DNA from: Asticcacaulis sp. SL142
Lineage (GTDB): Bacteria > Pseudomonadota > Alphaproteobacteria > Caulobacterales > Caulobacteraceae
Length of the DNA: 64,000 nt
Direction: 5' to 3'
NCBI RefSeq assembly: GCF_026625745.1
Contig: NZ_CP113061.1
Location: 3,255,001-3,319,000 of the forward strand
Shown: in pieces, positions 3,350-40,045 of the stretch
How positions within the stretch are numbered: position 1 is the first letter of the stretch
How the letters are laid out: every line of letters starts with the position of its first letter
The notes under the pieces: model-generated
What the model saw: the letters and a program-made list of their open reading frames with translations, nothing else
Told to the model about the DNA's origin: nothing
Databases searched by the model: none
Made by a program: the position numbers and the translations under genes

Positions 3350-3426
<77 letters not shown>

Positions 3427-4947: not shown

Positions 4948-5073
4948 GATCCGCTCCCGTGTGGTGGTAGCGGGTGAGTTATCCACAGATGGCGGGCGGG
5001 GTCTTGATGTGGGGTGCCATAAGATTTGACCGCCATGACGCGGCCTCTTGCCCTTAGGCGTGCATAGTCGGTT

Positions 5074-10191: not shown

Positions 10192-11472
10192 ATGACTATT
10201 GAGACCAAAGCCAATGCCAAGACGGCCCTTGGGGTTGTCGTGGCCTGTACCATCGGTAATGTGGTGTGCCTGACCGCGACGGTAAGCGCGGTGTTCGGCG
10301 TCTTTCTGGTGCCGATCTCTGAGGATTTCGGCTGGCAGCGCTCTCAGGTGACGGCGGTTTTGGGGATCATCTCTCTGGTCAGCATCATCGCCTTTCCGGT
10401 GGTCGGGCGGCTGATGGATATTTATGGTGGCCGTAAGGTTCTGCTGATTGGCAACCTGTTTTTCGCCCTCAGTGTCGCCGCAGTCAGTCAGGTCAATAAC
10501 AACCTGATGAATTTTTATCTGCTGTTTGCCCTGATCGGGATTGCGGGGGCGGTTCCCTGTACGGCCATGTTCTCAAAAGTCGTGTCGGAATGGTTCGATA
10601 AGCGGCGTGGCTTGATGCTGGGGATTTCCGCTGGCGTCGGTAACGGCTTGGGCGCGACCCTGATGCCGATCATTGCCGCCATATTGCTGGGCTATATGGG
10701 CTGGCAGATGAGCTATGCGGTGATCGGCTTTTTGATTTTCGCGCTTGGGTTTCCGGCGACGTATTTTTTGCTGAAGGACGCACCGCGCCCGGTGGTGACT
10801 GAGGCGACTAATCCGAAATACCATCCTAATGCGCCGTCCGAAGCCCTGGAAGGTCTGACCCTCACTGAGGCCCTGAAATCCGTACCGTTCTGGCTGATCA
10901 TTGCGTCTTTGGGGCTGGGCGCCGGGTGTCTGACGGCGATATTTTCGCACGTCATTCCGGTGCTGACCGACCGTGGCCAAAGCCTGACGATTGCGACAAC
11001 GGTTATGGTGGTTCTGGCGCTGGTGACCTCCGGCTGGCAGGTGGCGGTTGGGTCGTTGCTCGACCATATCAAATCGCCGCGGGTAGCCGCCCCGTCGTTT
11101 GTAGTGGCGACCATTGGCCTGTGGCTGCTGGAGACCGGCTCGTCGACGCCGCTGCTGATTTTGGCCGGTGCCTTGCTGGGCGTAGGTCTTGGGACCGCGT
11201 TCGGGGCCTTGCCCTATTTCATCTCCCGCTATTTTGGCCTTAAGGCCTACGGCGTCATCACCGGCGTGATCTATTCCGTGGTGATGCTGGCCCAGGGGGT
11301 GACGCCGTATCTGATGGATATCTGGTTTGATGCCCATAAGGCCTATTTCGGGTCGATCGTAATCATCGGTATCTGCCTGCTGATCGTGGCCGGTCTGATC
11401 ATGCTGTTCCCGCCGTATCGCATCAAGGTCAGTGCCGCTGATGTCGCACAGGTTAATCACGGCGGATTATAG
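10192..11472 (+). CDS. MFS transporter
   Basis: A 426-residue inner-membrane protein with twelve predicted helices in two halves and the loop 2-3 signature GRLMDIYGGRKV. It is an intact paralogue of the broken transporter at 3670-4947; shared segments include FALGFP and GLTLxEALK. GGAGTGACC lies directly before the ATG. Members of this branch import carboxylates and aromatic or other catabolic substrates by proton symport. It faces the GH3 gene head to head and converges on the AraC gene of the Rieske/amidase operon, so import of the pathway substrate or its aglycone is likely but unproven. Confidence 0.92.
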   Translation: MTIETKANAKTALGVVVACTIGNVVCLTATVSAVFGVFLVPISEDFGWQRSQVTAVLGIISLVSIIAFPVVGRLMDIYGGRKVLLIGNLFFALSVAAVSQVNNNLMNFYLLFALIGIAGAVPCTAMFSKVVSEWFDKRRGLMLGISAGVGNGLGATLMPIIAAILLGYMGWQMSYAVIGFLIFALGFPATYFLLKDAPRPVVTEATNPKYHPNAPSEALEGLTLTEALKSVPFWLIIASLGLGAGCLTAIFSHVIPVLTDRGQSLTIATTVMVVLALVTSGWQVAVGSLLDHIKSPRVAAPSFVVATIGLWLLETGSSTPLLILAGALLGVGLGTAFGALPYFISRYFGLKAYGVITGVIYSVVMLAQGVTPYLMDIWFDAHKAYFGSIVIIGICLLIVAGLIMLFPPYRIKVSAADVAQVNHGGL

Positions 11473-11485
11473 TAAATCGCGGGCT

Positions 11486-12439
11486 TTAAGCCTTACCCTG
11501 CGCTGACTGTCTGTGTTTGGACGGGGAGATACCAAAGCGCTCGCGGAAAGTGCGGCTGAAATGAGCGGCGTCATTAAACCCCCAGCGAAAGCAGATTTCC
11601 GACACCGATAGCTGCGAATGGACCGGGCTGATCAGGTCGGCATAGCACCTCTCCAGACGCCGCGTCTTGAGGTAGTTGGAAAACGTCATTTTTGATGCGG
11701 TAAACAGTTTTTGCACATAGCGCGGCGATACGCCGTTTTCATTGGCGACCTTGATCAGCGACAGGTTCGGGTCGTGCAGCAGGGTCTCGATCTTCTGACA
11801 AATTCGGCGCAGGTGAAAGGCGCGCGCGCCTGCCGCTCCGCCGCGCGATTCCGTGCGGCCATCATTGGCCAGCGATGCCGCCAGAAACTCGATCATCGAT
11901 TGTTCGACCGGTGGGAACTGATCGTCGGTCAGGCTCTCCAAAGTATCGGCCAGAGTAATCAGCATACCGTGAAAGATACGCTCCAGCCCCGTCCCGCCGG
12001 TCAGAACCCCGACCCTTGGCCCCATGGGCGTCACCAGACGCGGGCTGACGGCCAGTTGCGGGATCTTGATGAACAGCATCCGAAAGTCGGTGGTCAGCGT
12101 CAGGGTCGTTTCAACACCTGATGCGCCAAAAATGATCGAGCGGGCGCTGAGTTTCGTGGCCACGCCACCGACGTCGAGCACCCCTTCGCCGCGCGCCAGC
12201 ACGGCCAGCCAGACGGCGGAATTGTGATCGGGATTACGCCCGGAATAGGTCTGCGGTGTTGACTCCAGCACGGCAAATTCGCACCCCAGCGGCGTGGTGG
12301 TGATCATGACTGATCCGCGCACCCGCGCCAGTGACCCGATGTCGGCCACAGGCAGTTTCAGGCGGCGCAGGACATCCACCCACGCCGCCTGACGCTCCGT
12401 TTCGGGGAGCGGATCAACCGAGAACTTCCAAAGCGGCAT
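11486..12439 (-). CDS. AraC-family regulator next to an acetamidase gene
   Basis: A 317-residue regulator with an N-terminal cupin-like ligand-binding region and two C-terminal helix-turn-helix motifs from about residue 215 (ENGVSPRYVQKLF and ICFRWGFNDAAHFSRTF). The start chosen is ATG 12437-12439, one base after the TAA of the acetamidase gene, so the two are translationally coupled. A longer frame running back into the acetamidase gene is possible but would overlap it. The HTH half is strikingly similar to that of the AraC-acetamidase fusion at 22541, with shared RRLER, RYxQKLF and WGFND segments. It probably controls its own operon (Rieske oxygenase, amidase) and perhaps the divergent genes nearby. 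Confidence 0.92.
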   Translation of the reverse strand: MPLWKFSVDPLPETERQAAWVDVLRRLKLPVADIGSLARVRGSVMITTTPLGCEFAVLESTPQTYSGRNPDHNSAVWLAVLARGEGVLDVGGVATKLSARSIIFGASGVETTLTLTTDFRMLFIKIPQLAVSPRLVTPMGPRVGVLTGGTGLERIFHGMLITLADTLESLTDDQFPPVEQSMIEFLAASLANDGRTESRGGAAGARAFHLRRICQKIETLLHDPNLSLIKVANENGVSPRYVQKLFTASKMTFSNYLKTRRLERCYADLISPVHSQLSVSEICFRWGFNDAAHFSRTFRERFGISPSKHRQSAQGKA

Positions 12440-12440
12440 T

Positions 12441-13532
12441 TTAATCCGGATCTTTGACCACGCCCTTATCGGGGAAGATATTGCGATCAATGCGTACGTG
12501 AATGCCCTTGGTGCCGTCAACCACCTGCGTCACGCCAAAATCAGCGGCAACCGACATCAGCGAATATGCATCGTTACGCGATAGGCCCTGATGCTCGGTC
12601 AACAGCTCCAGCATGTCGAGTGAGGCGTTCTTCATGGCCTTATTCAGGTCTTCGTCAAAGCCGTGGACGATCCAGTTGTTCGGGGTTTCCAGCAGCGGCG
12701 ACGGGAACTTGAAATCCTTACGCAGAATTATCTGGAACAGGCAGTTAAGCGACGCTTCGATGGCGGTGCCGGAGATTTCGCCGTCGCCCTGAGAGACATG
12801 CGGATCGCCGATCGAGAACAGGCCGCCCTTGACCTGCACCGGATAGTACATGGTAGCACCCGCGCCGATGCGCCAGTTGTCGATATTGCCGCCGTGCAGG
12901 CCGGGGGGGATGGTTGAGACGCGCTGATCAACCGCAGGGGCGACACCGGCGGTCCCAAGGTGCGGACGGGCCGGAATGGAAATGCCTTTGAGGGCCGGCA
13001 CGCGGTCACATTCGGCGCAGTGGGTGATGGTGCCTGGGGTCATGTAGACGCCCGGAAAATCATAGGCATAAAGGGCGGACGCCGTATTGGAATTGGGGTT
13101 CAACTCATAGATGGTGACGCGTTCTTTCTTGTCGAACTCTTCGTACAGGTGACCCCAGTTGGCCGCCAGGTTCGAGCCGTAGTTAAAGCGCGGAGTCATC
13201 TGCAGGTAGCGTACCTCCAGCATGTCGCCGGGCTCGGCGCCTTCGACATAGATCGGGCCGGTCATGATGTGCACGCCCGGATTACGGTCGGCTTCCGGGA
13301 TTTCGGTAAAGATACGCTTGATCGCTTCATCGAACATCAGTTCCGGCGCATCGCCAGCGTGGTGGGTGACCGCTTCGGCCATGATCATGTCGCCGGATTT
13401 GACCGTCAGGGACGGCTTCACTTCCGGATGGAAATAGCCCCAGTGCACCGTCTCAGGCGTGGCACGCAGGACGTGCAGGTTTTTCGGTTCGGTGTCCTGA
13501 CGGGTCTCACCGGGCGTACAGATAAAGGCCAT
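12441..13532 (-). CDS. Acetamidase/formamidase family protein (FmdA/AmdA)
   Basis: A 363-residue cytoplasmic hydrolase of the FmdA_AmdA family, which releases ammonia from short amides such as formamide and acetamide. Family marks are TVHWGYF near residue 30, VTHHAGDAPEL near residue 53, GGNIDNWRIGAG near residue 217 and GDPHVSQGDGEISGTAIE near residue 245, with His and Asp residues likely to bind metal. It lies between a Rieske oxygenase gene (86-base gap) and an AraC gene (one-base gap). The true substrate may be a larger amide made by or feeding the oxygenase. The same domain forms the C-terminal half of the fusion protein at 22541, which has two extra inserts. Confidence 0.93.
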   Translation of the reverse strand: MAFICTPGETRQDTEPKNLHVLRATPETVHWGYFHPEVKPSLTVKSGDMIMAEAVTHHAGDAPELMFDEAIKRIFTEIPEADRNPGVHIMTGPIYVEGAEPGDMLEVRYLQMTPRFNYGSNLAANWGHLYEEFDKKERVTIYELNPNSNTASALYAYDFPGVYMTPGTITHCAECDRVPALKGISIPARPHLGTAGVAPAVDQRVSTIPPGLHGGNIDNWRIGAGATMYYPVQVKGGLFSIGDPHVSQGDGEISGTAIEASLNCLFQIILRKDFKFPSPLLETPNNWIVHGFDEDLNKAMKNASLDMLELLTEHQGLSRNDAYSLMSVAADFGVTQVVDGTKGIHVRIDRNIFPDKGVVKDPD

Positions 13533-13618: not shown

Positions 13619-14827
13619 TCAGGCCGCGCCCTTGACCGCCGTCAGTTTAGGGCCGGTCAAACGGTCATAGGCATCGCGGTAGCGCTTGATCAGCCAGCGG
13701 TTAAATTGGATCTGCGCCCCTTCCTGCCAGGAATAGCGACCGCGCGGCGCGAACTTGGAGCGCAGGCCGACCTGCACCAGTTCATCAACGTGCATGTCCT
13801 GATCGATGATGTGCATGGCCGCGACCATGTTCATTTCCATCTTGTGCCCGAAGGACGGATGCTTTGAGGCACCGGGCGCGACCAGCACACCGGTGTCCTG
13901 CTCCATCGTCTCAGGGCCGGTCGGGCGCAGGATCAGATAGATGACCATGTCGCTCATCATCACCAAGGACAGGGTCGGCGGGATGTTGGCAAAGGTCATG
14001 CGGTTGCGGTCGGCCTCGCTCAGGTTAGGGAACACCGGCAGCAGTGCCTTTTGCGTGGCGTTAAAGCTGGCGTCGGCATGAAGCGTGCCGTTGTAGCGCA
14101 GGAACCCGGCATCGGCCGGATCGGCCGGTGGAAACTCAGCCAGGTCGGACGGCACAAAATCATGCAACGGCCCCTGATGCAGCTTTGAGGCGTGGTAACC
14201 GTCATTGTTGTTTTCAAACATGACCTTCCAGTTCCACGGGAACACACCGGGCTTTTCCGGTTTGTCGCCGTCGGCATTGGCCAGATCATAGCCCGCAATA
14301 GCCTCCGATACGTCCTTAAGGCGCGGGGCCAACGGGGCGGCATCCAAGTCAAAATTAACAAAGATAAAGCCGTGCCAGATTTCGACCGCAAAACGGGTCA
14401 GGCCGTGGTCTTCTTTGTTAAAGTTGCAGGTCTTTTCCATGGCGGGTGCGCCGGTCAGCTTGCCGTCCAGACCGTAGGCCCAGTGGTGGTAAGGACACAG
14501 GAACATGCGCGTATTGCCGGAGCCTTCGGCCACCAGCATGGCGCGGTGCGCGCACACCGATGACATGGCGTTGACCTTGCCATCACGGCCGCGGGCGACG
14601 ACGATGGGCTCACCGGCAATATGGGTGGTGAAATAGTCGCCGGGGTTTTTCACCCAGCTTTCGCGGCCAACGCACAGCCATTCGTGATAATAGAGCGCTT
14701 CTTTTTCAAACTCATAGAAATCCGCGTCCGTGTAACATTCGGGCGGCAAGGTCTGCGCATCCGCCAGATCGATGTCGGATGAGTCAAAGGAAGCGATAAA
14801 GTCGCGGGAGGGAAGTTTCAAAGCCAT
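13619..14827 (-). CDS. Rieske non-heme iron oxygenase, large (alpha) subunit
   Basis: A 402-residue oxygenase component. The Rieske [2Fe-2S] ligands are visible as Cys-Ala-His near residue 93 and Cys-Pro-Tyr-His-His near residue 112. The catalytic domain has the mononuclear iron motif E-N-N-N-D-G-Y-H-A-S-K-L-H, i.e. bridging Asp and two His, with a later Asp in the IIDQD region as the probable third ligand. Family members hydroxylate aromatic rings or quaternary amines using electrons from a separate reductase. No reductase is adjacent; the PDR-type reductase at 25388 is the nearest candidate. ATG 14825-14827 is preferred over an upstream GTG because GAGGTG lies six bases before it. It is first in an operon with acetamidase and AraC. 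Confidence 0.93.
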   Translation of the reverse strand: MALKLPSRDFIASFDSSDIDLADAQTLPPECYTDADFYEFEKEALYYHEWLCVGRESWVKNPGDYFTTHIAGEPIVVARGRDGKVNAMSSVCAHRAMLVAEGSGNTRMFLCPYHHWAYGLDGKLTGAPAMEKTCNFNKEDHGLTRFAVEIWHGFIFVNFDLDAAPLAPRLKDVSEAIAGYDLANADGDKPEKPGVFPWNWKVMFENNNDGYHASKLHQGPLHDFVPSDLAEFPPADPADAGFLRYNGTLHADASFNATQKALLPVFPNLSEADRNRMTFANIPPTLSLVMMSDMVIYLILRPTGPETMEQDTGVLVAPGASKHPSFGHKMEMNMVAAMHIIDQDMHVDELVQVGLRSKFAPRGRYSWQEGAQIQFNRWLIKRYRDAYDRLTGPKLTAVKGAA

Positions 14828-15001
14828 GGTGAACACCTCGTGTTCGGTCGTTTCGTGGCAGCGCCCCTGAGAGTCCTCGGCTCAGGCGGATGCCATCGTG
14901 AGCTAAACCTAAATCCCGCGCCGGGCTCGGTCTTGTGTTTAGGCGCACAACAACTTGTTCGCGGCGGGTGAGGTGACTAAGAAAAATATTCATCCAAATG
15001 G

Positions 15002-15383: not shown

Positions 15384-15819
15384 TCTGGAACTGACCGTCA
15401 GCCGCAAAATCGCGGCCCCTCGTCAGGAGGTTTTCAATGCCTGGCTGTCACCGGCCACGCTGGCGCGGTTTATGAAAACCGCCGCTGACGGGCTGGATGC
15501 CGTTAAGGTCGAGACCGATCCGGTTAAGGGTGGGCGCTTTTCCATCCTGATGGTGACGCCGGAACGTGAGGTGCCTCATGCGGGCACTTATCTTGATGTG
15601 ACGCCCTACAGCCGGTTGTCGTTTACGTGGGAGTCGCCCCATTCGCTCGATGACAGTGTGGTTACGCTTGAGTTTGCAGAACTTGAGTCGCGCTTGACCG
15701 AAGTTACGCTGACGCAGGTCAAGTTCCGCAGCGAAGAGGCCCGCCTTGGCCACATTAAGGGCTGGACGGCGATCATCGGCTATCTTGAGAGTACCTTGCT
15801 GGATAGCCCGGTCGCCTAA
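15376..15819 (+). CDS. SRPBCC (AHSA1-like) domain protein
   Basis: A 147-residue protein of the START-like SRPBCC fold, AHSA1 branch, with the usual opening VSRKIAAPRQEVFNAWL and the C-terminal long helix (HIKGWTAIIGYLES). These proteins have a hydrophobic ligand pocket. An ArsR gene followed by this gene is a very common pair in bacteria; the function is poorly known, with stress or small-hydrophobe binding proposed. The eight-base overlap indicates translational coupling. It converges on the SDR gene with a four-base overlap at the stop codons. Confidence 0.9.
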   Translation: MNDLELTVSRKIAAPRQEVFNAWLSPATLARFMKTAADGLDAVKVETDPVKGGRFSILMVTPEREVPHAGTYLDVTPYSRLSFTWESPHSLDDSVVTLEFAELESRLTEVTLTQVKFRSEEARLGHIKGWTAIIGYLESTLLDSPVA

Positions 15820-16640
15820 GCCTCAAACCCCGTCGAGAGTGACAGGTCGCGCCATTGGTCGAGGTCTTTTTGGATCTCGGCCATTTCTTCTTCGGCGTAT
15901 CCGACCGCATCGGCCCCCAGCAGCAGATGCAGGGGCGGGGCTTTCATACCGGCGATTTTGAGCACGGCCGCAGCGAGCTTTGCCGGATCACCCGGCTCAT
16001 GGCCACCGTGGGCCGCAAGCGTGCGTTCGGCTTCGCGGGCCTTGCCGTCATAATCGCCGATTTTGGAGGTGACGATGTTGAGCGAGCTGCCGGCAAAATT
16101 TGTGCGGAACCCACCGGGGGCGAGGTTGGTGACGCCGATACCCAGTTCCTCAACCTCTTCGGCCAGTGTGCGGCCTAAGCCCTCCATGGCAAATTTGGTG
16201 GCCCCGTAGATGCCCGATCCAGCCCAGGGCGCATAGCCGCTGACCGAGGTCACATTGATGATATGGCCGGACCGGCGGGCGCGCATATAGGGCAGGACCG
16301 CCTGAAGCACGCTGATCGCGCCAAACACATTGACATCAAAGCAGGTGCGGATTTCCTCATAACTGGCTTCTTCAACCGCCCCGATCAGACCAAAACCGGC
16401 ATTGTTGACCAGAACCTCAATGCCGCCGGAGGCTTTTTCAGCGGCGGCCACGGCGGCATCTATGCTGGCGCAGTCGGTGACATCGGCGATCAGGCCCAAT
16501 GTATCGCCGGGCAGGGCCTCAAATGCCTTAAGATCAGCCGCATTACGCACCGTGCCCGCCACGAAATCGCCGCGCGCGAGGGCCGCATGTGCAATCGCCA
16601 GTCCAAAGCCTTTGCTGACGCCGGTTATGAACCATTTCAT
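15816..16640 (-). CDS. Short-chain dehydrogenase/reductase
   Basis: A 274-residue NAD(P)-dependent oxidoreductase of the classical SDR type. The nucleotide-binding turn is TGVSKGFG at residues 6-13, the structural NNAG lies near residue 83, and the catalytic Ser-Tyr-Lys set is seen as TSVSGYAPW and YGATK. The start ATG 16638-16640 is chosen because GAGG lies six bases upstream; a longer frame to 16652 lacks a ribosome-binding site. It is probably cytoplasmic. The substrate is unknown, and its position beside the ArsR/SRPBCC pair gives no further clue. Confidence 0.92.
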   Translation of the reverse strand: MKWFITGVSKGFGLAIAHAALARGDFVAGTVRNAADLKAFEALPGDTLGLIADVTDCASIDAAVAAAEKASGGIEVLVNNAGFGLIGAVEEASYEEIRTCFDVNVFGAISVLQAVLPYMRARRSGHIINVTSVSGYAPWAGSGIYGATKFAMEGLGRTLAEEVEELGIGVTNLAPGGFRTNFAGSSLNIVTSKIGDYDGKAREAERTLAAHGGHEPGDPAKLAAAVLKIAGMKAPPLHLLLGADAVGYAEEEMAEIQKDLDQWRDLSLSTGFEA

Positions 16641-17057
16641 AGTAAGCCTCATGGGAGTTTTAGGACGCTTATTGCGCCTGTGAATTCGGGCGCGATCATC
16701 TGTATGCCGCGGGTTCTGGTCTTGATAGTTTGCGTCTGAATTGTTGTTCGGCGGCGTTATCGACCTGTGCCAGGGGGCCCGAAGACAGCGCTTGCCCCGT
16801 CAAATCTTGTCTGCACGCGCACGCAAGGGGGCCGGTGAGCTATTGGCTATGTGGGAAAAATACATCGTTTGACGCGCAGGCAGGGCAGCGGCGCAAGTTA
16901 GAGGGCGCAGGGGCTCAAGACGGTGACCTGACTATTGTGACAGATTTTTATCAACGATCGGCTGGATCGGACACCTAACCTGAACGCGGCCTTCGCACCT
17001 CCCGGCGAATGCAGCATGGTAATAGAAGCTCAATTTTGACCAAGGGGATATGGCAAG
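16641..17057. other. Intergenic region, SDR to TonB-dependent receptor
   Basis: A 417-base divergent gap that must hold promoters for the SDR gene and the receptor at 17058. No gene, gene remnant, Fur box or riboswitch motif was recognised. AAGGGG shortly before the receptor ATG is a plausible ribosome-binding site. Confidence 0.5.
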
Positions 17058-19466
17058 ATGAACGGCAAGCGTACTCAATTAAAATTCTATCTGCTGGGGC
17101 TGACGGCCCTGAGTGGCATCATGTCGGCCCCGGCATTTGCGCAAGAGGCGGCTGAGGGTGATGCGGTGACCGAAGTGGTCGTCACCGGTGCCCGCGACTT
17201 GGCAGGCGTCAAGCAAAAGCGCTCAACCAGCAGCGTTTTCGGTATTGATAAGCCGCTGGTCGACACCCCGCGCGCCGTGACCGAAATTTCGGATAAGTTG
17301 CTGTCGCGCTATTCGATCAAGAGCGTCTATGACTTTACGGCGGTGGCCGCGGGCACCTATACCGGTTCCTACTTCGGCGTTCCGGGCAGCCTGAACATTC
17401 GCGGCACGATGGCTGACAACTATTATAACGGCTTTCAGGGCCTGTCGAATTTTGCCAACTACCCGACGCCGGTTGATGCGACCTCATCGATTGAAATCGT
17501 ACGCGGCCCGACTTCTCCGGTTTACGGTGCCGGTCAGGTTGGCGGATTCATGAACTTTATCCCGAAGACCGGTTATGGTGAAAACACCAAGTACGTCAAC
17601 GAACTGGGCGGCGATGCGTCGATCACCATCGGCTCTTACGGTGAAAAGGTTGTCACGGGTAACCTGTCGGTGCCGGTTGACTGGAAGGGCAATAGTGCGG
17701 GCTTGCACGTCTTTGCCAAGGTCGAAGATTCCGACAGCTTCTATAAGGGCATGCACCCGTCGTCCGAAGTGGCACAGATTGCCTTTGCCAGTGACCTCGG
17801 CTCAAAATGGTCGCTGGAAACCAGCTATCAGTTCATCCACTCTGATGGCTATCTGAAAAACATCGGCTGGAACCGCGTCACGCAGGATCTGATTGATAAC
17901 GGCAACTATATCTCCGGCTCACCGATCGCCAAGATCAACGATGGCTCGACGCCGTTCATCACCGCCGGTCAGTTCTTTGGCACCGCCTTTGGTTCGACTT
18001 TGTTGTTTACCGCGCCCTCTATCGGCGTGACCCCGACACCGAACGATTTCACCACCCTTGATCCGGCGACCGTAAAGCTGGTTAAGCTGTCGCCGCGCAC
18101 CACCTTCATCGACGAAGGCGTTGACCTCAACGAGGCCATGACCCACACCCTGTATGCCGGTGTGTCACGTGTGTTCGAAAGCGGCGGCAAGCTGAAGTTC
18201 GAGGGCTTCCTCAATACGCTCGATTCAGAAAACTACCAAAGCTACGGCTTCGGCAGCAAATATATGTCGACCTTGAGCGAGCAGCGCATCACCTATACGC
18301 AGGATTTTGCGACCGGGCCGGTCGAGTGGAAGACGGTATCGGGTGTCAGCCACCGCTTTACCCACGCCCACGTTCAGGGCAGCCTGAATGACTTTGTGAT
18401 CTCCGAAGATCGCCGTGATTTGAGCGTCGGGGCCACCCCTGATGACCGCTTCAACAATCCGTTTGCGGCCGGTTATAGCTGGGCTACCGATGTGACCAGC
18501 AAGATCCACAACTACGGCGCGTTCCTGCTGGGCGATGCGACCTGGGGCCCGGTTAGCCTGACCCTTGGCGGCCGCTCGGATAAGTATGAGGTTGAGGCCA
18601 AGAACATAGGTACGGAAACCGGCGGTATCAATGTCGCTACGGCTGACGACGATACGGCCTATAGCTATAACGCCTCGCTGGCCTATAAGTTCGACTGGGC
18701 GACCTTCTACACCACCTATGCCCGCGCCAAGTCGCTGCAGGTCGATCAGGGCGGTGGTCTGGCCCCCAGCCTGATCCTCAACGGCGCTTATCTCGGTAAT
18801 TCGCGCCTGCGCGAAGCCGGGGTCAAGACCTCGCAGTTCGGCGGACGTTTGTTTGCCGCTCTGGCTGTCTATGATCAGGATCGCTCCTACCTAAGCCAGC
18901 CGCCATCGGGCGTGCAGACCGTCAGCGCCCTGCGTACCCAGGGGATAGAGGCGGAACTGCGCTACCTCGTCACCGAAAGCTTTGGGATGACGGCGACCCT
19001 GACCAAGCAAAAGACCAAGATGCAGCCGACTGCCGGTGCCGGTTTCTTCATCACCGTGCCGTCCTGTCTGGCCGGCATTGAATGTACCGAAGGCTACGGC
19101 GGTTATGCGTTCTCCAATGCCAACTACTTCCCCGGTATGCAGGACGGCTATTACCTGCACGCCACGCCGGAAACCAGCGGATCACTGTTTGCCACCTATG
19201 ATAAGCGCGGCAAGTGGGGCATGACCGGCGGCGTGACCTATGCGTCGGAAACCGGCGGCTTCCTGCCGGGATCGATCGTCCTGCCGGAATATGTGGTGGC
19301 GCGGGCCGGGGCCTACTACATCCACGGGCCGTACCGGTTTGATTTCAATGTCGATAACCTGTTTGATGAGGAATATTTCCTGGCCAACAGCGATACCGAC
19401 GCCAATGCCAACGTCCTGCCCGGTATCGGCCGTACGATGCGTATAAAGCTCAGCCGGACGTTCTAA
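17058..19466 (+). CDS. TonB-dependent outer-membrane receptor
   Basis: An 802-residue receptor. A signal peptide of about 29 residues ends PAFA-QE. The TonB box is seen in AVTEVVVTGARD, followed by the plug domain (LNIRGTM near residue 115, IEIVRGPTSPVYGAGQVGG near residue 150) and a 22-strand barrel ending with the outer-membrane Phe (LSRTF). The plug resembles siderophore-type receptors, but many such proteins in Caulobacterales import plant-derived or other organic molecules. The carboxylesterase gene follows 128 bases downstream on the same strand, so the ligand may be an ester. Confidence 0.93.
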   Translation: MNGKRTQLKFYLLGLTALSGIMSAPAFAQEAAEGDAVTEVVVTGARDLAGVKQKRSTSSVFGIDKPLVDTPRAVTEISDKLLSRYSIKSVYDFTAVAAGTYTGSYFGVPGSLNIRGTMADNYYNGFQGLSNFANYPTPVDATSSIEIVRGPTSPVYGAGQVGGFMNFIPKTGYGENTKYVNELGGDASITIGSYGEKVVTGNLSVPVDWKGNSAGLHVFAKVEDSDSFYKGMHPSSEVAQIAFASDLGSKWSLETSYQFIHSDGYLKNIGWNRVTQDLIDNGNYISGSPIAKINDGSTPFITAGQFFGTAFGSTLLFTAPSIGVTPTPNDFTTLDPATVKLVKLSPRTTFIDEGVDLNEAMTHTLYAGVSRVFESGGKLKFEGFLNTLDSENYQSYGFGSKYMSTLSEQRITYTQDFATGPVEWKTVSGVSHRFTHAHVQGSLNDFVISEDRRDLSVGATPDDRFNNPFAAGYSWATDVTSKIHNYGAFLLGDATWGPVSLTLGGRSDKYEVEAKNIGTETGGINVATADDDTAYSYNASLAYKFDWATFYTTYARAKSLQVDQGGGLAPSLILNGAYLGNSRLREAGVKTSQFGGRLFAALAVYDQDRSYLSQPPSGVQTVSALRTQGIEAELRYLVTESFGMTATLTKQKTKMQPTAGAGFFITVPSCLAGIECTEGYGGYAFSNANYFPGMQDGYYLHATPETSGSLFATYDKRGKWGMTGGVTYASETGGFLPGSIVLPEYVVARAGAYYIHGPYRFDFNVDNLFDEEYFLANSDTDANANVLPGIGRTMRIKLSRTF

Positions 19467-19594: not shown

Positions 19595-21094
19595 ATGATG
19601 CGCACAGCGATTTTGATGTCGGCGGCCCTGATGGCCATTGCGGCGCCTGCCGTTTGGGCGGGGCCAAAGGTTCAGATTGATGCAGGGACGATTGAGGGTG
19701 TGAGTGCGGCAGGCATCGACCGCTATCTGGGCATCCCTTACGCCGCGCCGCCGGTAGGTGAATTACGCTGGCGCGCGCCGCAAAGTCCGGCTCCGTGGTC
19801 AGGAACGCTTGAGTCCAGACAGTACGGCCCAGATTGCGTGCAGATGGACATGGACAGCCCGCCGGGACCGGGGTTCGTCAATCCGGAATCCGAAGACTGT
19901 CTTTATCTCAATGTCTGGGCCCCTGAAGGTGCGGCCAATAAAAAGCTGCCGGTCATGGTGTGGATCTATGGCGGGGCGTTCATCATGGGGGCGTCGTCCT
20001 ACCCCAGCTATGACGGCACGGCTTTTGCCAAACAGGATGTGATCGTGGTGTCGATGAACTACCGCGTCGGGCGGTTCGGGTTCTTTGCCCATCCTGAGTT
20101 AAGTGTGCCGGGCGAAGCCACCGGCAATTTCGGCCTGATGGACCAGATCGCCGCCCTGAAATGGGTGCAGGCCAATATTGCGGCCTTTGGCGGCGACGCC
20201 GGTAATGTCACTATTTTCGGTGAGTCGGCGGGTGCGTCTTCGGTCAATTTCCTGATGGCATCACCGGCGGCGAAGGGCCTGTTCCATAAGGCCATCGCTC
20301 AGTCCGGGGGTTCAAACGCCTATGTCAAACCGCTGGAAAAGGCCCATGCCGATGCGGTCGCTTGGGGCGAAAAGGCCGGGGCGAAATCCGCCGAAGATTT
20401 GCGCAAACTGCCTGCCGCCACCGTGCTGGGCGCCCCGGTCATTGCTCCTGAAACCGTCATTGCCGATGGCCAGATTGTGTCGAAATCAACGCCAGACGCT
20501 TATCTGGCCGGTGAGATTGCCGATGTCCCTTATCTGGTCGGGGCCAATGACTATGAGGAAAGCCTGATCAAATGGCTGCCGGGGGCGGAAAAGAAATTGA
20601 TTGAAAGCCTTGGGCCAAAAGGTGAGGCGGTCGTGACGCTTTATATGGCCGAGGGGGCATCGCGTGAGGTCGCTGAAAAGCGGGTGTGGGGCGAATATGC
20701 CATGACCTTGCCCGCCCGCTGGCGCGCCGATCAGCGTGCGAAATCGGGCAGTAAGGTCTGGCTCTACCGCTTTTCCTATGTGCCGGAAATGCTGCGGGCG
20801 ACCACGCCGGGGGCAGGCCATGAAAATGAGATTGAAATGGTCTTTGATATCCGCAACAGCCGCACCGCGCGTCATGACTGGACGGCGGCGGATTTGAAGA
20901 TGGCATCGTCCATGAACCGCTACTGGGCCAATTTCGCCAAGACCGGAAATCCTAATGGCGATGGTTTAGCGCCATGGCCCGCCTATACAGTCAAATCCCG
21001 CACCCTGATGCAATTTGGTAAGGACGGCATCGCGCCGATCAAAGACTTCGCCAAGGCCCGCCTTGATGCGCTTGAGGCGGCGACGGCGAAATAG
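19595..21094 (+). CDS. Secreted type-B carboxylesterase
   Basis: A 499-residue alpha/beta hydrolase of the carboxylesterase type-B family with a signal peptide of about 22 residues (ending VWA-GPK). The oxyanion-hole segment WIYGGAF lies near residue 124, the nucleophile S211 is in GESAGAS, the acid is probably Glu in NDYEES near residue 320, and the His is in GAGHENEIE near residue 410. It cleaves carboxylic esters, probably in the periplasm. AGGAG precedes tandem ATG codons at 19595 and 19598, either of which may be used. It is coupled by position to the receptor at 17058. Confidence 0.93.
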   Translation: MMRTAILMSAALMAIAAPAVWAGPKVQIDAGTIEGVSAAGIDRYLGIPYAAPPVGELRWRAPQSPAPWSGTLESRQYGPDCVQMDMDSPPGPGFVNPESEDCLYLNVWAPEGAANKKLPVMVWIYGGAFIMGASSYPSYDGTAFAKQDVIVVSMNYRVGRFGFFAHPELSVPGEATGNFGLMDQIAALKWVQANIAAFGGDAGNVTIFGESAGASSVNFLMASPAAKGLFHKAIAQSGGSNAYVKPLEKAHADAVAWGEKAGAKSAEDLRKLPAATVLGAPVIAPETVIADGQIVSKSTPDAYLAGEIADVPYLVGANDYEESLIKWLPGAEKKLIESLGPKGEAVVTLYMAEGASREVAEKRVWGEYAMTLPARWRADQRAKSGSKVWLYRFSYVPEMLRATTPGAGHENEIEMVFDIRNSRTARHDWTAADLKMASSMNRYWANFAKTGNPNGDGLAPWPAYTVKSRTLMQFGKDGIAPIKDFAKARLDALEAATAK

Positions 21095-21478: not shown

Positions 21479-22417
21479 CTAAACCGTCTCCGACAAAAAC
21501 GCCTCGACCTCGGTGCGGGTCGGGGCGGAATTGGCTGAGGGGCGTGACACGGAAATAGCGGCGGCAGCAGAGGCAAATTCCAGCGCGTCGATCAGCGAGC
21601 GTCCCCAGGCCAGTTCGCAGGCCAGCGCGCCGTTAAATACATCGCCTGCGCCGGTCGCATCTACGGCTTCAACCCGAAACGCCGGAAGCCGGATCAATGT
21701 CCCCTCAATCAGGGCCGCGCAGCCATTTGACCCCAGGGTGGCTACCACCTGACCAGCCCCGGCCTTACTTAAGCTATGCAGAGCGGCGTGCAGGGTGGCG
21801 TCACCCAGTCCCTCTATGCCCGTCAGGCTGGACAGTTCGGTATCGTTGGGCGTAACCACATCGGCCAGAGGCATCAACGCCAAAGCCGCCATATCGACGG
21901 GGGCGGGATTAAGTATGGCCTTGACGCCATGCGCGCGGGCGATCTCCAGCGCTTTACGCACGGCCTCAAGCGGAATTTCAAGCTGCACCACCACCACATC
22001 GGCCACAGCGATCAGGTGAGTGGCGGCCTCAATCATCTCCGGCGTGACGCAGGCATTGGCACCCGGAGCGACCGCAATCGTGTTCTGACCATCAGTGGCG
22101 ACGGTAATATGGGCGGTGCCGGTCGGCATTGCGGCCACGGTCTCGACATGCTCGTCCTTGACCCCATTGGTCTTGAGATAGGCGCGGGCCTGCTGACCAA
22201 AGGCATCGTCACCGACCGCGCCAACCATGCGTGTATCACAGCCAAGCCGCGCCATCGCCACCGCCTGATTAACGCCCTTACCGCCGATGACGGTGGTAAA
22301 GCTTTTGCCCATCACGGTTTCATTGGCGCGCGGTAAGGCTTTGACCTCAACAATGAAATCCGCATTGATTGAACCGACGACGACGATTTTTGGCGTGATT
22401 TTAGCGGGCGTAGACAT
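21479..22417 (-). CDS. rbsK: Ribokinase (PfkB family sugar kinase)
   Basis: A 312-residue kinase that phosphorylates ribose (or a close relative) with ATP. PfkB signatures are present: the GGKGVNQAVAMARLG segment near residue 45 and the catalytic DATGAGDVFNGAL near residue 258. GSINADF near the N-terminus matches ribokinase rather than fructokinase. It is downstream of the fusion gene on the same strand, 123 bases away, with a hairpin between. Nucleoside-derived ribose could tie it to amide or N-heterocycle breakdown, but this is speculative. Confidence 0.9.
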   Translation of the reverse strand: MSTPAKITPKIVVVGSINADFIVEVKALPRANETVMGKSFTTVIGGKGVNQAVAMARLGCDTRMVGAVGDDAFGQQARAYLKTNGVKDEHVETVAAMPTGTAHITVATDGQNTIAVAPGANACVTPEMIEAATHLIAVADVVVVQLEIPLEAVRKALEIARAHGVKAILNPAPVDMAALALMPLADVVTPNDTELSSLTGIEGLGDATLHAALHSLSKAGAGQVVATLGSNGCAALIEGTLIRLPAFRVEAVDATGAGDVFNGALACELAWGRSLIDALEFASAAAAISVSRPSANSAPTRTEVEAFLSETV

Positions 22418-22540: not shown

Positions 22541-24868
22541 CTATCCGGTGAAAATACCCTTGCGGATAATGGCGTGAGCGCCCCAGTTGCCATTGACCAT
22601 TTGCGTCACGCCAAAATCAACCCCGACCGACAACAGCGATATGGCCTCATCTTCGCTCAGGCCCTTGGTGGTCATCAAAAACCGCCGGGCCTTTCGGAAC
22701 GCATCGCGCATGGCCCCTTCGATCGAGGCCTTTTTGTAGATTTCGCTCTGGGCCTTATCGCCCAGTTCACGCAAGTAATTGGGCTGGGAAAAGCCCATGA
22801 TTACCCATTCGTCCTTGGTTTCGATCAGCGGGTAATCCAGATCCCGCAGCGGATCACGCTGGGTCGATTTGGGGTGCAGGACGATCTGGATCAGGGCGGT
22901 CATCGAACACTCAATGGCCGTGCCGCATAGCTCAGAATCGCCCTGAGAGGCATGGGGATCGCCCAGCGACAGCAGGGCCTCCGCCACGTTGACCGGCAAA
23001 AATATCGACGCGCCGGGGCCTAAGCGCCAGTTATCGATATTGCCGCCGAAATTGGCCGGTGGCACGGAATCGACCAGCCCCTCCTGAGCGGGCGCGACCG
23101 CCACAAACCCGAAATGCGGCCGCACCGGAATTTCGACATTGCGCAGAACGTCATAGTTTTTCTGGATCGTCGTATGATCAATCGGCACGCCCGGATAGTC
23201 GTAACGGTCATGTTTGGTGCCATAAGGATCGATCTGCGGGGTATAGCGGAAATTATAGACGGCGTGGGCGCAACAGCGTTCATGGCCGGTTTCGACCTCA
23301 TAGATGGTGACGACTTCGCGCGGTTTCGGCTCGGTCAGCAGGTCATGATAATGAAACCCCCAATAGGCGGCGACATTGCTGCCAAAGCTGCGACCGGCAA
23401 ATTTCGGATTGACCGACGGACGGGTCTTGATCTCCAGGAAGCGCACCTCAACCACATCGCCGGGCTTGGCCCCCATGACCCCGATCGGGCCGGTGCAGAT
23501 ATGGACGCCAAAGCCTTCGCCGGCCCCGCGCCCGACCGCAGAGCCGTCCATCGGCCCGGCACCACGCCGTTCAATTGCCTTACCTTCGGGTATCCAGGCA
23601 TAGACGCTTTCGGCCCCGGCATCGCCTTCGATCATGCGCTCATAATCATCGGCGGCATGGTGAGTCAGGGTTTCAATGGTCACATAATCGCCGGACTGAA
23701 CTCTAAGTGTCGGTTTAAGATTGCGGCTGATATAGCCCCAGTGCACCGTCTCAGGTGAGGCGGGCAGGTAGTGGTGCCTTACGCCGGATTGCACAGGCAA
23801 AGGTGCGTCTTCGGCATCAACCTCAACGGTCAGGGCCTCATCGAGATCCAGCGGTTCGTCTTCGGCAACGGGCGGCTTTTCCTGACGGGCGGTCGGGCGG
23901 CCGCGGCGCGGGGCTTCGGCGTCTTCGTTCTCAAGCGGTGGTGATTTGCGGTATTCGCGTGGGGACACGCCGTATTGCTCACGAAAGGCCCGGCTGAAGG
24001 AGGCTGAATCGTTAAACCCCCACTGGAACAGAATATCGGAAATGGATTTCTGGGCATGGAGCGGGCTCAACAGGTCCATGCGGCAGCGCTCTAACCGGCG
24101 CAATTTGACATAATGCCCAAAGCTTTCATCAACCGTTTCAAACAGTTTTTGCAGATACCGCATGGAGATGCCGTGCTCGGACGCCACCTGCTGCAGGTTC
24201 AGGTTGGGATCGGACAGGTGCATTTCTATGGTCTGAAACACCCGCTCCAGTAACATGGCGCGCGCGCCCGCTGACCCGCCCAATGACTTTGACGGCGCGC
24301 CTTCCATCAGGGCGGTCAGCAAAAATTCCGGCAGGCTAAGTTCAACCGGCCGCACCCGGTCGGTATTCAGGTCGTTGATGGTATCGGCCACCGAGCGCAA
24401 CATGCCTGATAGTATCCGGCCCGCGCCAGTATCGCTGGCGATCAGGTTAATGCCGTCGGGCAAAGGGTTGCGTACCCGCAGCGCCAGATAGGGCTTGGGC
24501 ACCTTGATCAGCAGAAAGCGGTGATCGCGGTGGAAATCGAGGACGGCTTCAATATTGCCATCACCAAAGACGATATCACCTTCGCGCACGGTCAGGATAT
24601 GGGTGCCGTGGCTGACTTTTAAGTCGCCTTCCAGCAGTTGCAGCAGCCAGATATGATCCGGCTGATCCTGCATATCGATTTTGACGATCTGGGCGGTGGA
24701 CGACACGCTGATGAAATCAACGCCCTGGGTGCTCTGGTAGCTCGACAGTTCGCCGTAGGCCGTGTCAGTGCTCAAAGCCTCAAGCTTCAGGGATTTACGC
24801 TGCAATGCAAAGCGCCAGGAGTCCCAGCGTTGTTCCTTGGGGTAGGCATTGGTCGTAAAACGCAACAT
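22541..24868 (-). CDS. AraC regulator fused to acetamidase/formamidase
   Basis: One uninterrupted 775-codon gene. Residues 1-200 form an AraC-type ligand-binding region, and 205-308 carry two helix-turn-helix motifs (EHGISMRYLQKLF; ILFQWGFNDSASFSRAF). Residues 310-362 are a Pro/Glu/Arg-rich linker, and 363-775 are a complete FmdA/AmdA amidase (TVHWGY, TLTHHAADD, GGNIDNWRLGPG, GDPHASQGDSELCGTAIE). The amidase half keeps the likely metal and catalytic residues of the separate enzyme at 12441 and has inserts near 410-450 and 530-565. No ATG lies between codons 264 and 412, so a full amidase cannot start independently from ATG. The protein lacks export or membrane signals. It may be a regulator that senses its amide substrate through the enzyme domain, or simply a bifunctional protein. 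Confidence 0.93.
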   Translation of the reverse strand: MLRFTTNAYPKEQRWDSWRFALQRKSLKLEALSTDTAYGELSSYQSTQGVDFISVSSTAQIVKIDMQDQPDHIWLLQLLEGDLKVSHGTHILTVREGDIVFGDGNIEAVLDFHRDHRFLLIKVPKPYLALRVRNPLPDGINLIASDTGAGRILSGMLRSVADTINDLNTDRVRPVELSLPEFLLTALMEGAPSKSLGGSAGARAMLLERVFQTIEMHLSDPNLNLQQVASEHGISMRYLQKLFETVDESFGHYVKLRRLERCRMDLLSPLHAQKSISDILFQWGFNDSASFSRAFREQYGVSPREYRKSPPLENEDAEAPRRGRPTARQEKPPVAEDEPLDLDEALTVEVDAEDAPLPVQSGVRHHYLPASPETVHWGYISRNLKPTLRVQSGDYVTIETLTHHAADDYERMIEGDAGAESVYAWIPEGKAIERRGAGPMDGSAVGRGAGEGFGVHICTGPIGVMGAKPGDVVEVRFLEIKTRPSVNPKFAGRSFGSNVAAYWGFHYHDLLTEPKPREVVTIYEVETGHERCCAHAVYNFRYTPQIDPYGTKHDRYDYPGVPIDHTTIQKNYDVLRNVEIPVRPHFGFVAVAPAQEGLVDSVPPANFGGNIDNWRLGPGASIFLPVNVAEALLSLGDPHASQGDSELCGTAIECSMTALIQIVLHPKSTQRDPLRDLDYPLIETKDEWVIMGFSQPNYLRELGDKAQSEIYKKASIEGAMRDAFRKARRFLMTTKGLSEDEAISLLSVGVDFGVTQMVNGNWGAHAIIRKGIFTG

Positions 24869-24930: not shown

Positions 24931-25387
24931 ATGCACTGTAATATATGGTAATTTTTGATTTCACGGGCGGGGCGTCACCGAGGGCTCCCCCTGCGTCACC
25001 TTGTCGCCTGTAAGGTTATTGGCGGGTTAAACCCTAAAACTGTCAACGTCAGGCGCGGGTTTGTGCGCGTACAGACAAGAAAACGTGCAGACGGAACACA
25101 GGCATATTCGCAAATGCAAAAAAACGGTCACAATGGAACGCTGCCCGGTGCAAAACATCTGAGGGAAAACTACACCGGGTCCATTGTGACCGGCCCAAGT
25201 TCGAGGGGAGGCGGGCACCTTACCCATAAATCGGGTACGCTCGCGGGTCTTGATCGGTCGCGTCCTGAAACTTGGTGGCGCGTTTGGGGGGCGGATATCT
25301 GTTCAAGATTATGTGCCTTTATCGACAAGTCACGCACCACGGGTCTCGCTATGGTGGCTCATCGAGTTTTGCTTTGAGGTAGTGAGT
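24931..25387. other. Divergent control region, fusion gene to reductase
   Basis: No gene or gene remnant is recognised in these 457 bases. A long frame at 24955-25377 has no family resemblance and overlaps the structured element. The region holds the 66-base interrupted inverted repeat described separately, and must contain promoters for the reductase gene and probably the fusion gene. Confidence 0.5.
25126..25191. promoter_or_regulatory. Long interrupted inverted repeat in the divergent promoter region
   Basis: GGTCACAATGGA (25126-25137) pairs perfectly with TCCATTGTGACC (25180-25191). Directly inside on the right, and after a six-base bulge on the left, CCCGGTG (25144-25150) pairs with CACCGGG (25173-25179). 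That gives 19 paired bases with one asymmetric bulge and a 22-base loop. It could be a DNA operator pair or a transcribed RNA hairpin. Confidence 0.6.
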
Positions 25388-26362
25388 ATGTCGGAAACCC
25401 ATCTTCGGGTGCGCGTCCATAATCTGACTGAGGTTGGCCAAAGTGGCGAAGCCGGTTGTGTGCGTATCCTTGACCTGAGAGCCGAAGAGGGTTCGGACCT
25501 GCCGCCGTTTGAAGCCGGCGCGCACATCGATATCGTGGCGCGTGAAGGGCTGATCCGGCAATATTCGCTGCTCAATGCGCCGTCGGAGTGTCATCGCTAC
25601 GTGGTGGCCATTGCGCTGGATGCGACCAGCCGGGGCGGGTCAAAGCATTTTCATGACTGGGTTGAGCCTGACGATGTCCTGACCATCAGTGCGCCGAGGT
25701 GCCATTTTCACCTCAATGAAGACAGCCCCTATACGGTGCTGATCGCCGGTGGGATCGGGGTGACGCCGGTGTGGTCGATGGCGCAGCGCCTGCTGGCACT
25801 GGGTATGCCGTTTGAGTTTCATTACGGCGCCCGCGCCCGGTCGCAGGCGGCGCTGCTGACGGAAATTGAGGCGACGCTTAAGGCCGCAGGTGTGCACTTT
25901 GAGGCGCGGTTTGAAGAGGATGGCGGCGCGCGGCTTAATCTGACGGATATTTTCGAGGGGGCCCCTGAAGGCGCGCATTTCTATGCCTGCGGCCCGTCAG
26001 GGATGCTGGATGCCTATATTGCCGCGGGGTCGGCGCGTGGGGTGGACTATGTTCACTATGAACGCTTCTCCGGTGTTGAAGAGGCGGCCACCGAAGGCGG
26101 TTTTGAGGTCGAACTGGCCCGCACAGGCGGCTGTTATGAAGTGCCTTCGGGCCTGACCATTCTTGAGGCACTCAAAACTCATGGCATTAATGTGCCGCAT
26201 AGTTGCGCCGAAGGTATCTGCGGCGCTTGTGAATGTGGGGTCTTATCGGGTATCCCCGACCATCGCGACAGTGTGCTGACCGACGCGGAAAAAGCCGCCA
26301 ACACGACTATGATGGTGTGCTGCTCCGGATCGCGCTCGCCCAAGCTCGTGCTTGACCTGTAA
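25388..26362 (+). CDS. PDR/VanB-type oxygenase reductase (flavin, NAD, 2Fe-2S)
   Basis: A 324-residue electron-transfer protein of the phthalate dioxygenase reductase family. Order: flavin-binding beta barrel (RQYSLLN near residue 58), NAD-binding domain (IAGGIGVTP near residue 119; YACGPSGM near residue 200), then a plant-type ferredoxin with ligands in CAEGICGACECG and a final Cys in MMVCCSGS. It passes electrons from NADH to a Rieske oxygenase. ATG 25388 is preferred because GAGGTAG precedes it; the reading frame extends upstream without support. The Rieske alpha subunit at 13619 is the only visible partner and lacks a reductase of its own. It starts a probable operon with the BASS transporter. 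Confidence 0.93.
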   Translation: MSETHLRVRVHNLTEVGQSGEAGCVRILDLRAEEGSDLPPFEAGAHIDIVAREGLIRQYSLLNAPSECHRYVVAIALDATSRGGSKHFHDWVEPDDVLTISAPRCHFHLNEDSPYTVLIAGGIGVTPVWSMAQRLLALGMPFEFHYGARARSQAALLTEIEATLKAAGVHFEARFEEDGGARLNLTDIFEGAPEGAHFYACGPSGMLDAYIAAGSARGVDYVHYERFSGVEEAATEGGFEVELARTGGCYEVPSGLTILEALKTHGINVPHSCAEGICGACECGVLSGIPDHRDSVLTDAEKAANTTMMVCCSGSRSPKLVLDL

Positions 26363-26374
26363 CCGGATAGACTG

Positions 26375-27355
26375 ATGATCAATAAACTCAAAAACGCCGC
26401 CAAGGTGATCGACCCGTTCATCGTGATCATGCTGGGGCTGGTGGTGCTGGCCAGCGTCCTGCCGGTGCGCGGGCAGGCGGCGGTGGTGGCTGATATTGTC
26501 ACCGATGCCGCGATTGTGCTGCTGTTTTTCCTGCATGGGGCCAAGCTGTCGCGGGAAGCTATTGTGGCCGGATTTTCCAACTGGCGCGTCCACGGCGTGG
26601 TGCTGGCGACGACCTTTGTGGTCTTTCCGCTGATAGGGCTTTTGATGCAGGTAAGCCTTAGCGGCATTATCGCCCCCATGATCCTGAGCGGGTTTCTGTT
26701 CCTCACCCTGCTGCCATCGACCGTGCAGTCTTCGATCGCCTTTACCGGCATAGCGCGCGGCAATGTCGCCGCCGCCGTGTGCAGTGCGTCCTTATCCAAC
26801 GTGCTGGGGATATTCCTGACGCCGTTGATGGTCGGGCTGTTTATGGGGGCGACCTCTGGCGTATCGATGGCGGCGATTGAAAAGATCGCCCTGCAACTGC
26901 TTTTGCCATTTGTGCTGGGTCATCTGGCGCGGCCAATCCTTGCCGGGTTTATCGCCAAGCATAAGACGCTGGTGGGACGGGTCGATCGCACCTCGATCCT
27001 GCTGGTGGTCTACACGGCGTTTTCGGCTTCGGTTGTTGAGGGCCTATGGTCGAAAGTCTCCGCCGTTGATCTGATCAGTGTCCTGATACTGTGCGCCGTC
27101 GTCCTGACCGTTGTTTTGTGGGGGACGTGGTTTATCTCCGGCCGGTTAGGGTTTGCCCGCGAAGACCGGGTGGTCATCCTGTTCTGTGGCTCAAAGAAAA
27201 GCCTGGCGTCCGGCGTGCCCATGGCCTCAACCCTGTTTCCAGCAGTCATGCTCGGGCCGGTGATTTTGCCGCTGATGCTGTTTCACCAGATTCAGTTGAT
27301 CGTCTGCGCCTTTATTGCCCAGAAGATGAAATCACCCGGTAAGGAGGAGCACTGA
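26375..27355 (+). CDS. Bile acid:sodium symporter family (BASS) transporter
   Basis: A 326-residue inner-membrane protein with about ten hydrophobic helices of the SBF-like branch. Characteristic features are FFLHGAKLSREAIVAGF near residue 50 and the VILFCGSKKSLASGVP segment near residue 260. BASS members move organic acids and sterol acids with sodium; the SBF-like group is less well defined. It starts 12 bases after the reductase gene and is followed two bases later by the dehydrogenase pseudogene, so all three form one transcript. Uptake or export of the oxygenase substrate is plausible. Confidence 0.9.
   Translation: MINKLKNAAKVIDPFIVIMLGLVVLASVLPVRGQAAVVADIVTDAAIVLLFFLHGAKLSREAIVAGFSNWRVHGVVLATTFVVFPLIGLLMQVSLSGIIAPMILSGFLFLTLLPSTVQSSIAFTGIARGNVAAAVCSASLSNVLGIFLTPLMVGLFMGATSGVSMAAIEKIALQLLLPFVLGHLARPILAGFIAKHKTLVGRVDRTSILLVVYTAFSASVVEGLWSKVSAVDLISVLILCAVVLTVVLWGTWFISGRLGFAREDRVVILFCGSKKSLASGVPMASTLFPAVMLGPVILPLMLFHQIQLIVCAFIAQKMKSPGKEEH

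Positions 27356-35604: not shown

Positions 35605-40045
<4,441 letters not shown>

Follow-up and report, generated by a model that had tools for sequence, protein, structure and literature searches.

Ada and PutA are bifunctional regulators with a catalytic part, and, to our knowledge, few folds are represented among the enzyme-derived sensor domains of transcription factors. In the MocR/GabR regulators a GntR helix-turn-helix (HTH) is joined to an aminotransferase-like sensor domain, and the protein controls genes of related metabolism (PMC5320631). Here a protein was analyzed in which an AraC-type regulator is followed, in the same chain, by an amidase of the acetamidase/formamidase family. 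The fusion is real, its amidase half is complete and the arrangement is conserved. The window (the whole 64-kb stretch of DNA analyzed) encodes it as follows.

22541..24868, minus strand: AraC-amidase fusion gene, 775 aa (from frame, Pfam, relatives and AlphaFold2 model)
24284..24868, minus strand: AraC N-terminal cupin and helix domain, residues 1-195
23945..24259, minus strand: AraC double-HTH DNA-binding domain, residues 204-308
23783..23944, minus strand: linker, residues 309-362, disordered in the model
22544..23782, minus strand: complete FmdA/AmdA amidase domain, residues 363-775

A sequence-only reading of this DNA had proposed one continuous frame at 22541-24868, and this was confirmed: the frame begins with ATG and runs for 775 codons with no internal stop, on the minus strand, which that reading had not given. 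The AraC regions that it described were recovered as Pfam HTH_18 (residues 229-308, 69.1 bits) and HTH_AraC (267-308, 48.3 bits), while AraC_binding_2 matched residues 53-168 at 25.5 bits, slightly below the cut-off of 27. The combination of a double-HTH domain with an N-terminal cupin-type effector domain places the protein in the AraC/XylS family. The amidase half proved to be full length, as had been claimed, with FmdA_AmdA scoring 86.3 bits against a cut-off of 27 and both the GGNIDNW and GDPHASQGD segments present. A score above the curated cut-off, the complete fold and the GGNxD plus GDxH...GDxE signature assign it to the FmdA/AmdA family (PF03069); against the Formamidase FmdA equivalog NF045496 it scored 57.6 bits, below the cut-off of 500. 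A separate amidase start had been judged absent, and indeed codons 264-412 contain no ATG, nor was a Shine-Dalgarno sequence evident by eye at the TTG/GTG codons 267, 301, 357, 359, 375 and 396. In the AlphaFold2 model the two halves were confident, pLDDT fell below 50 at residues 312-361 of the linker, and no reliable contact was found between the AraC and amidase halves (pTM 0.55).

Full-length fusions were found in 16 of 299 genomes of the family (five genera; at most three candidates scored per genome), in 4/385 genomes of the class and in 8/398 of the phylum, the source genome being included each time; the other 15 fusions of the family share 51-98% identity with the query. Additionally, 80 loci were kept out of 544 related stretches, all of them spanning both halves, from Caulobacteraceae, sphingomonads, Hyphomonas, Parvibaculum, Burkholderiaceae, Aliiglaciecola/Paraglaciecola and Nevskia. 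Eighteen plasmid records contained a match, with at least 80% query coverage in 16 and a near-complete match in 15. The 80 loci, eight plasmid loci and the window make up the 89 loci compared below, which are best matches and form an uneven, sphingomonad-rich sample. The arrangement is an old one and extends over three proteobacterial classes. Within the genus Asticcacaulis, nine listed genomes carry the fusion together with matches to the separate amidase and AraC described below, and 16 listed genomes have no match, so the cluster seems to be gained or lost as a unit. The exception among the 16 plasmid records is Rhizobium johnstonii TP60 (locus L069, 9466-11875), where the match begins at residue 145 and the fusion is annotated as two genes; the N-terminal part of this fusion seems disrupted. 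Public records label the gene either as 'acetamidase/formamidase family protein' or as 'AraC family transcriptional regulator', and the fusion is therefore easily missed.

That the junction might be an assembly artefact had been named by the sequence-only reading as one finding that would undo it; a chance read-through of two genes was considered alongside. Nothing in favour of either was found. Each of the 89 loci gave one full-length alignment across the junction, from many assemblies, the genome itself is a single contig and both halves are under purifying selection, which refutes an artefact and leaves this explanation with virtually no probability. Among 62 fusions the mean pairwise identity was 72% for the amidase, 71% for the HTH, 42% for the AraC N-domain and 21% for the linker. 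Over eight pairs dN/dS ranged from 0.01 to 0.08 for the amidase, from 0.02 to 0.15 for the AraC N-domain and from 0.01 to 1.06 for the linker, and over seven pairs from 0 to 0.05 for the HTH.

The fusion gene lies within a cluster of catabolic, transport and regulatory genes.

5165..6280, plus strand: TauD-family dioxygenase, cluster member
6370..6861, minus strand: VOC/glyoxalase protein, cluster member
6874..7710, minus strand: LigB extradiol-type dioxygenase, cluster member
10192..11472, plus strand: MFS transporter, cluster member
11486..12439, minus strand: stand-alone AraC, 317 aa, sister clade of the fused AraC half
12441..13532, minus strand: stand-alone amidase, 363 aa, distant D-type clade
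13619..14836, minus strand: Rieske oxygenase alpha subunit, cluster member
15816..16652, minus strand: SDR oxidoreductase, cluster member
17058..19466, plus strand: TonB-dependent receptor
19595..21094, plus strand: carboxylesterase; no operator site found upstream
21479..22417, minus strand: PfkB (ribokinase-like) kinase, cluster member
25388..26362, plus strand: ferredoxin-type reductase, start taken at ATG 25388; a longer frame runs from TTG 25250
26375..27355, plus strand: SBF-like transporter

Across the 89 loci the recurring neighbours were SDR (60), Rieske oxygenase (56), MFS (56), PfkB (50) and VOC (49) genes, followed by LigB (47), RutA-like monooxygenase (46), isochorismatase (45) and TauD (40), with family names taken from one representative each; a TRZ/ATZ-type deaminase protein was also among the cluster families (one representative). 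The RutA-like monooxygenase, isochorismatase, TRZ/ATZ-type deaminase, PfkB, Rieske, LigB and TauD families point to a nitrogen heterocycle or amide as the substrate. A separate amidase gene accompanied the fusion at 76 of the 89 loci and none was seen in the other 13, some of which are short stretches; the fused copy is therefore seldom the sole enzyme. In four annotated records, from Neorhizobium, Rhizobium, Caballeronia and Paraburkholderia, the fusion adjoins an amino-acid-type ABC importer and an amidase of ~413 aa.

Several further features were recorded. At 11486-13532 (minus strand) the amidase is followed directly by the sister-clade AraC, a gene order that reverses the domain order of the fusion. 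A family-3 glycoside hydrolase (7805-9997, minus strand) sits between the LigB and MFS genes and is absent from the recurring neighbours listed. In nine Burkholderiaceae loci (L060, L137, L138 and L140-L145) a polysaccharide-deacetylase-like gene lies directly 3' of the fusion, and in six of these it is preceded by a weak operator-like site (12.9-14.1 bits). Elsewhere in the window an RND-type efflux system (35767-40045, plus strand) comprises an 812-aa frame that encodes the membrane-fusion portion together with the initial portion of the pump, whose remainder lies in another, overlapping frame; a sequence error or a broken gene is possible. A recombinase-type fragment (Pfam Recombinase; 33237-33734, minus strand) is perhaps the relic of a mobile element, and a short MFS-like frame, truncated-looking by eye, lies at 3670-4185 (minus strand) near a tRNA-Met gene (3350-3426).

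The best NCBIfam match of the AraC half was FeaR NF007243 (residues 14-309), at 119.3 bits and thus below the equivalog cut-off of 199. In the AraC tree the stand-alone AraCs beside D-type amidases were split from the fused AraC halves by a branch with support 100/99. The only outgroup row is of low quality and is placed within the fused halves, so that the stand-alone AraCs may derive from fused ones by loss. A relaxed AraC N-domain, in which sensing would have moved to the amidase, was apparent when pairs were binned by HTH identity and failed a paired comparison of genomes holding both regulators. Here N-domain conservation was lower in the fusion in 1/91 pairs, the HTH was the more conserved part in 89/91, and no decay of the AraC cupin was found. 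The N-terminal cupin, intact in the fusion, may therefore be the real sensor.

Three short elements stand out in the linker and the amidase half.

23894..23905, minus strand: RGxP motif (RGRP here), residues 322-325, from 62 fusions compared with 33 sister AraCs
23033..23047, minus strand: GGNID signature, residues 608-612, from invariance in alignments
22931..22963, minus strand: GDPHASQGDSE signature, residues 636-646, from invariance in alignments

RGxP is the only fixed element of the linker: its R, G and P were invariant in 62/62 fusions, and the motif occurred in 0/33 stand-alone sister AraCs in the stretch that follows the HTH. Its form here, RGRP, is one that we take to resemble an AT-hook core. 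In the amidase signatures G608, G609, N610 and D612, as well as G636, D637, H639, G643, D644 and E646, were invariant over 62 fusions and 44 stand-alone enzymes; one member (L063) of the other set, of 33 fusions, has Ala at position 643.

At 66 loci encoding both enzymes, mean identity was 73% for the fused amidase domain and 76% for the separate D-type enzyme, and the fused domain was at least as conserved in 392 of 2145 pairs. By these sequence comparisons the amidase half is under strong purifying selection. Fusion-specific changes affected 5 positions, compared with 5, 1 and 46 in three enzyme groups (46 in the distant group). This comparison gave no sign of catalytic loss in the fused amidase, so that a plain enzymatic role is possible, and catalysis is likely to be retained. 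At residue 403, His is found in 44/44 stand-alone amidases and in the protein of the window, and Gln in 16/33 fusions; this difference may mark two functional kinds of fusion.

These data bear on the suggestion of a catalytically silent amidase half that serves as a module for oligomerization or scaffolding, with sensing left to the AraC cupin. Residue 624 is Leu in 33/33 fusions and Tyr or Phe in 44/44 stand-alone enzymes, Gly is replaced by Ala at residue 590 in 29/33 fusions, and the four chains in the entry PDB 3b9t, an enzyme deposited under a Tat-signal name, would suit a multimer. However, the substitution of Tyr624 by Leu was ruled out as evidence of lost catalysis, since Leu occupies the equivalent position in the 2f4l and 5ubu alignments too, and the signature residues are unchanged over the 62 fusions. 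We consider a silent module improbable.

In the amidase tree (10 near-copies left out) the fused domains formed one clade (support 99/97, recovered in each of 200 bootstrap trees), separate from a clade of D-type stand-alone amidases (100/100). The enzyme that is paired with the sister AraC belongs to another lineage than the fused amidase. In an earlier tree the clade adjoining the fused domains contained nine stand-alone amidases, eight of them with a Tat-like motif near the start. The simplest reading of these trees is a single fusion event.

Comparison of upstream regions yielded an initial short motif with 54 intergenic (290 kb) and 16 coding (1,471 kb) matches; none of 200 permuted patterns reached 54 intergenic matches (maximum 16). 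The refined operator is CTTG-N7-GCGC-N8-TTG, with CTTG-like direct repeats spaced by 22 bp. On the training loci themselves the refined matrix gave 329 intergenic and 38 coding sites at a threshold of at least 15 bits. When 20 permuted seeds were used (eight listed), one equalled the real motif with 329/38 sites and presumably represents the same motif, and another gave an AT-rich run (609/34). In comparisons between classes, a matrix trained on alpha loci and applied at 18 bits or more identified 14 intergenic and 0 coding sites in 12/14 beta loci, and 2 intergenic and 1 coding site in 2/3 rhizobial loci; a beta-trained matrix identified 34 intergenic and 0 coding sites in 24/68 alpha loci. 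Four gamma loci gave 10 intergenic and 0 coding sites, a result of low weight since the gene calls are poor. Site centres lay at a median of 108 bp upstream of start codons.

With a matrix trained without Asticcacaulis, the 64-kb window contained 10 sites of at least 15 bits, all between cluster genes if the reductase starts at 25388, compared with a mean of 0.37 and a maximum of 2 in shuffled windows (n=30). The fusion gene itself is preceded only by a weak site of 12.6 bits.

5003..5030, plus strand: predicted operator, 19.8 bits
5077..5104, minus strand: predicted operator, 19.7 bits
7768..7795, plus strand: predicted operator upstream of LigB, 20.0 bits
10054..10081, plus strand: predicted operator near MFS, 15.6 bits
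14932..14959, plus strand: predicted operator upstream of the Rieske-amidase-AraC operon, 25.3 bits
16721..16748, plus strand: predicted operator between SDR and TonB receptor, 24.3 bits
16892..16919, minus strand: predicted operator between SDR and TonB receptor, 21.4 bits
22469..22496, plus strand: predicted operator upstream of PfkB, 22.7 bits
25052..25079, minus strand: weaker half-type site, 12.6 bits, 184 bp upstream of the fusion start
25249..25276, plus strand: predicted operator upstream of reductase, 22.7 bits
25302..25329, minus strand: predicted operator upstream of reductase, 21.6 bits

Short patterns performed poorly by comparison. With up to two mismatches, 21 matches were found in the window against 15 expected, which is near chance; with up to one mismatch there were 4 against 0.93 expected, a count reached by 2/100 shuffles. 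Genome-wide, the matches inside the cluster were 4 of 66, 4 of 30 and 5 of 43, most lying elsewhere. One short form, drawn partly from the loci in question, had three exact matches in the genome, all in the cluster, and 40 one-mismatch matches, two of them in the cluster; another had four exact matches, two in the cluster. Only the 28-bp matrix is convincing; the short patterns are not.

To which regulator the operator belongs was addressed from both sides. Of the 89 fusion loci, 75 lack a separate sister AraC within the stretch, and an operator site was present in 71 of these 75, compared with 1/75 after shuffling. Conversely, the operator was present in 20/20 clusters without the fusion that encode a stand-alone sister AraC (20-kb stretches). 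These clusters were chosen from 45 family genomes with a match and without a full-length fusion; they were preselected for an AraC plus amidase match, and 'without the fusion' rests on a search scoring at most three candidates per genome. An operator specific to the fusion, suggested by 2/14 short fusion-less loci, was overturned by this result. DNA recognition therefore needs no amidase, nor can the operator be credited solely to the fusion: it is probably read by both the fusion and the sister AraC, each a candidate in the window. Genomic evidence gives good support to control of the cluster by the fusion.

Taken together, the data favour a model, to which we give a probability of roughly 0.58, in which the fusion is an AraC-type activator of an amide or nitrogen-heterocycle regulon and its amidase half binds an amide intermediate and alters the AraC half through the linker. 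The activator would control genes for the catabolism of a substrate that contains an amide or a nitrogen heterocycle by binding tandem half-sites CTTG-N7-GCGC-N8-TTG, mostly ~70-210 bp before its targets, as conservation suggests. The amidase domain, akin to amidases with export signals, would bind an amide intermediate of the pathway and, through the linker, would change the DNA binding or the RNA polymerase contact of the AraC half. On this view a one-time enzyme may have been recruited to sense the substrate. Because the active-site signature is preserved, the domain might also hydrolyse its ligand slowly and so reset the switch, a speculative addition. We infer the sensor role from a complete and constrained domain, the usual presence of a separate enzyme, the fixed linker element and the MocR/GabR precedent, and it fits a genomic context in which a separate amidase is usual, yet the fused one is strongly constrained. 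The proposal of the sequence-only reading, an amidase acting as a substrate-gated sensor for the regulator, is supported in part.

The retained signature is equally what a bifunctional protein without coupling would display, in which the AraC half is run by its own N-terminal domain and the amidase is an extra cytoplasmic enzyme of the pathway; the long, variable linker, disordered in the model, and the preserved AraC N-domain are also consistent with this account. However, most loci already have a separate amidase gene (the 76 noted above), and an enzyme fused to a regulator would presumably be made at regulator level. Moreover, coupling is suggested by a fusion that has stayed intact over three proteobacterial classes and whose otherwise unconstrained linker keeps RGxP invariant. 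We regard the uncoupled protein as a possible but doubtful alternative to a coupled amide sensor.

An extended form of the coupled model is unlikely as a whole and is put forward tentatively. Here the sensor would reset itself by both binding and destroying its inducer, so that output follows flux and the system switches itself off; this AraC lineage would have become linked to amidases on two occasions, in one case by being joined to an exported-type amidase in a single chain and in the other as an AraC gene lying next to, and after, a D-type amidase gene; and where the genes are separate, the adjacent amidase may influence its AraC in trans. An amidase-free sister with the same operator is a natural control, and a clean test of the contribution of the catalytic domain is therefore possible. 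A genetic biosensor for amides could additionally be derived from the fusion, which also draws attention to a catabolic cluster that is so far uncharacterised.

Among the systems known, Ada (DNA methyl repair) and PutA (membrane-redox switching) differ from the fusion in folds, chemistry and logic. The FeaR model NF007243 (303 positions), the nearest for the AraC half, has no amidase domain, and the predicted acetamidase/formamidase of Methylobacillus flagellatus (PDB 3b9t), named for a twin-arginine translocation pathway signal, is stand-alone, while the fusion has an AraC regulator in front. The sister AraC and D-type amidase of Caulobacteraceae share with the fusion the AraC lineage, operator and cluster genes; they differ in being separate genes, amidase then AraC, with an amidase of a distant clade. 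With MocR/GabR (PMC5320631) the fusion shares a DNA-binding domain joined to a large domain of enzyme fold. The folds are unrelated, however, since the fusion combines an AraC double HTH, a cupin and FmdA/AmdA in place of GntR and a PLP aminotransferase, and Pfam found in it neither a GntR winged HTH nor a class I aminotransferase domain; it would work like MocR/GabR at most by analogy. No description of an AraC-amidase fusion was found in the open-licence PMC literature searched, which included parts of PMC10781810, PMC12421990 and PMC5320631. An enzyme-derived domain on a transcription factor is of a known kind, and no account of the pairing of AraC with an amidase was found in that search; what the fusion brings to the known systems is an AraC regulator bearing an amidase fold, distributed over three classes of proteobacteria and accompanied by a predicted operator and regulon.
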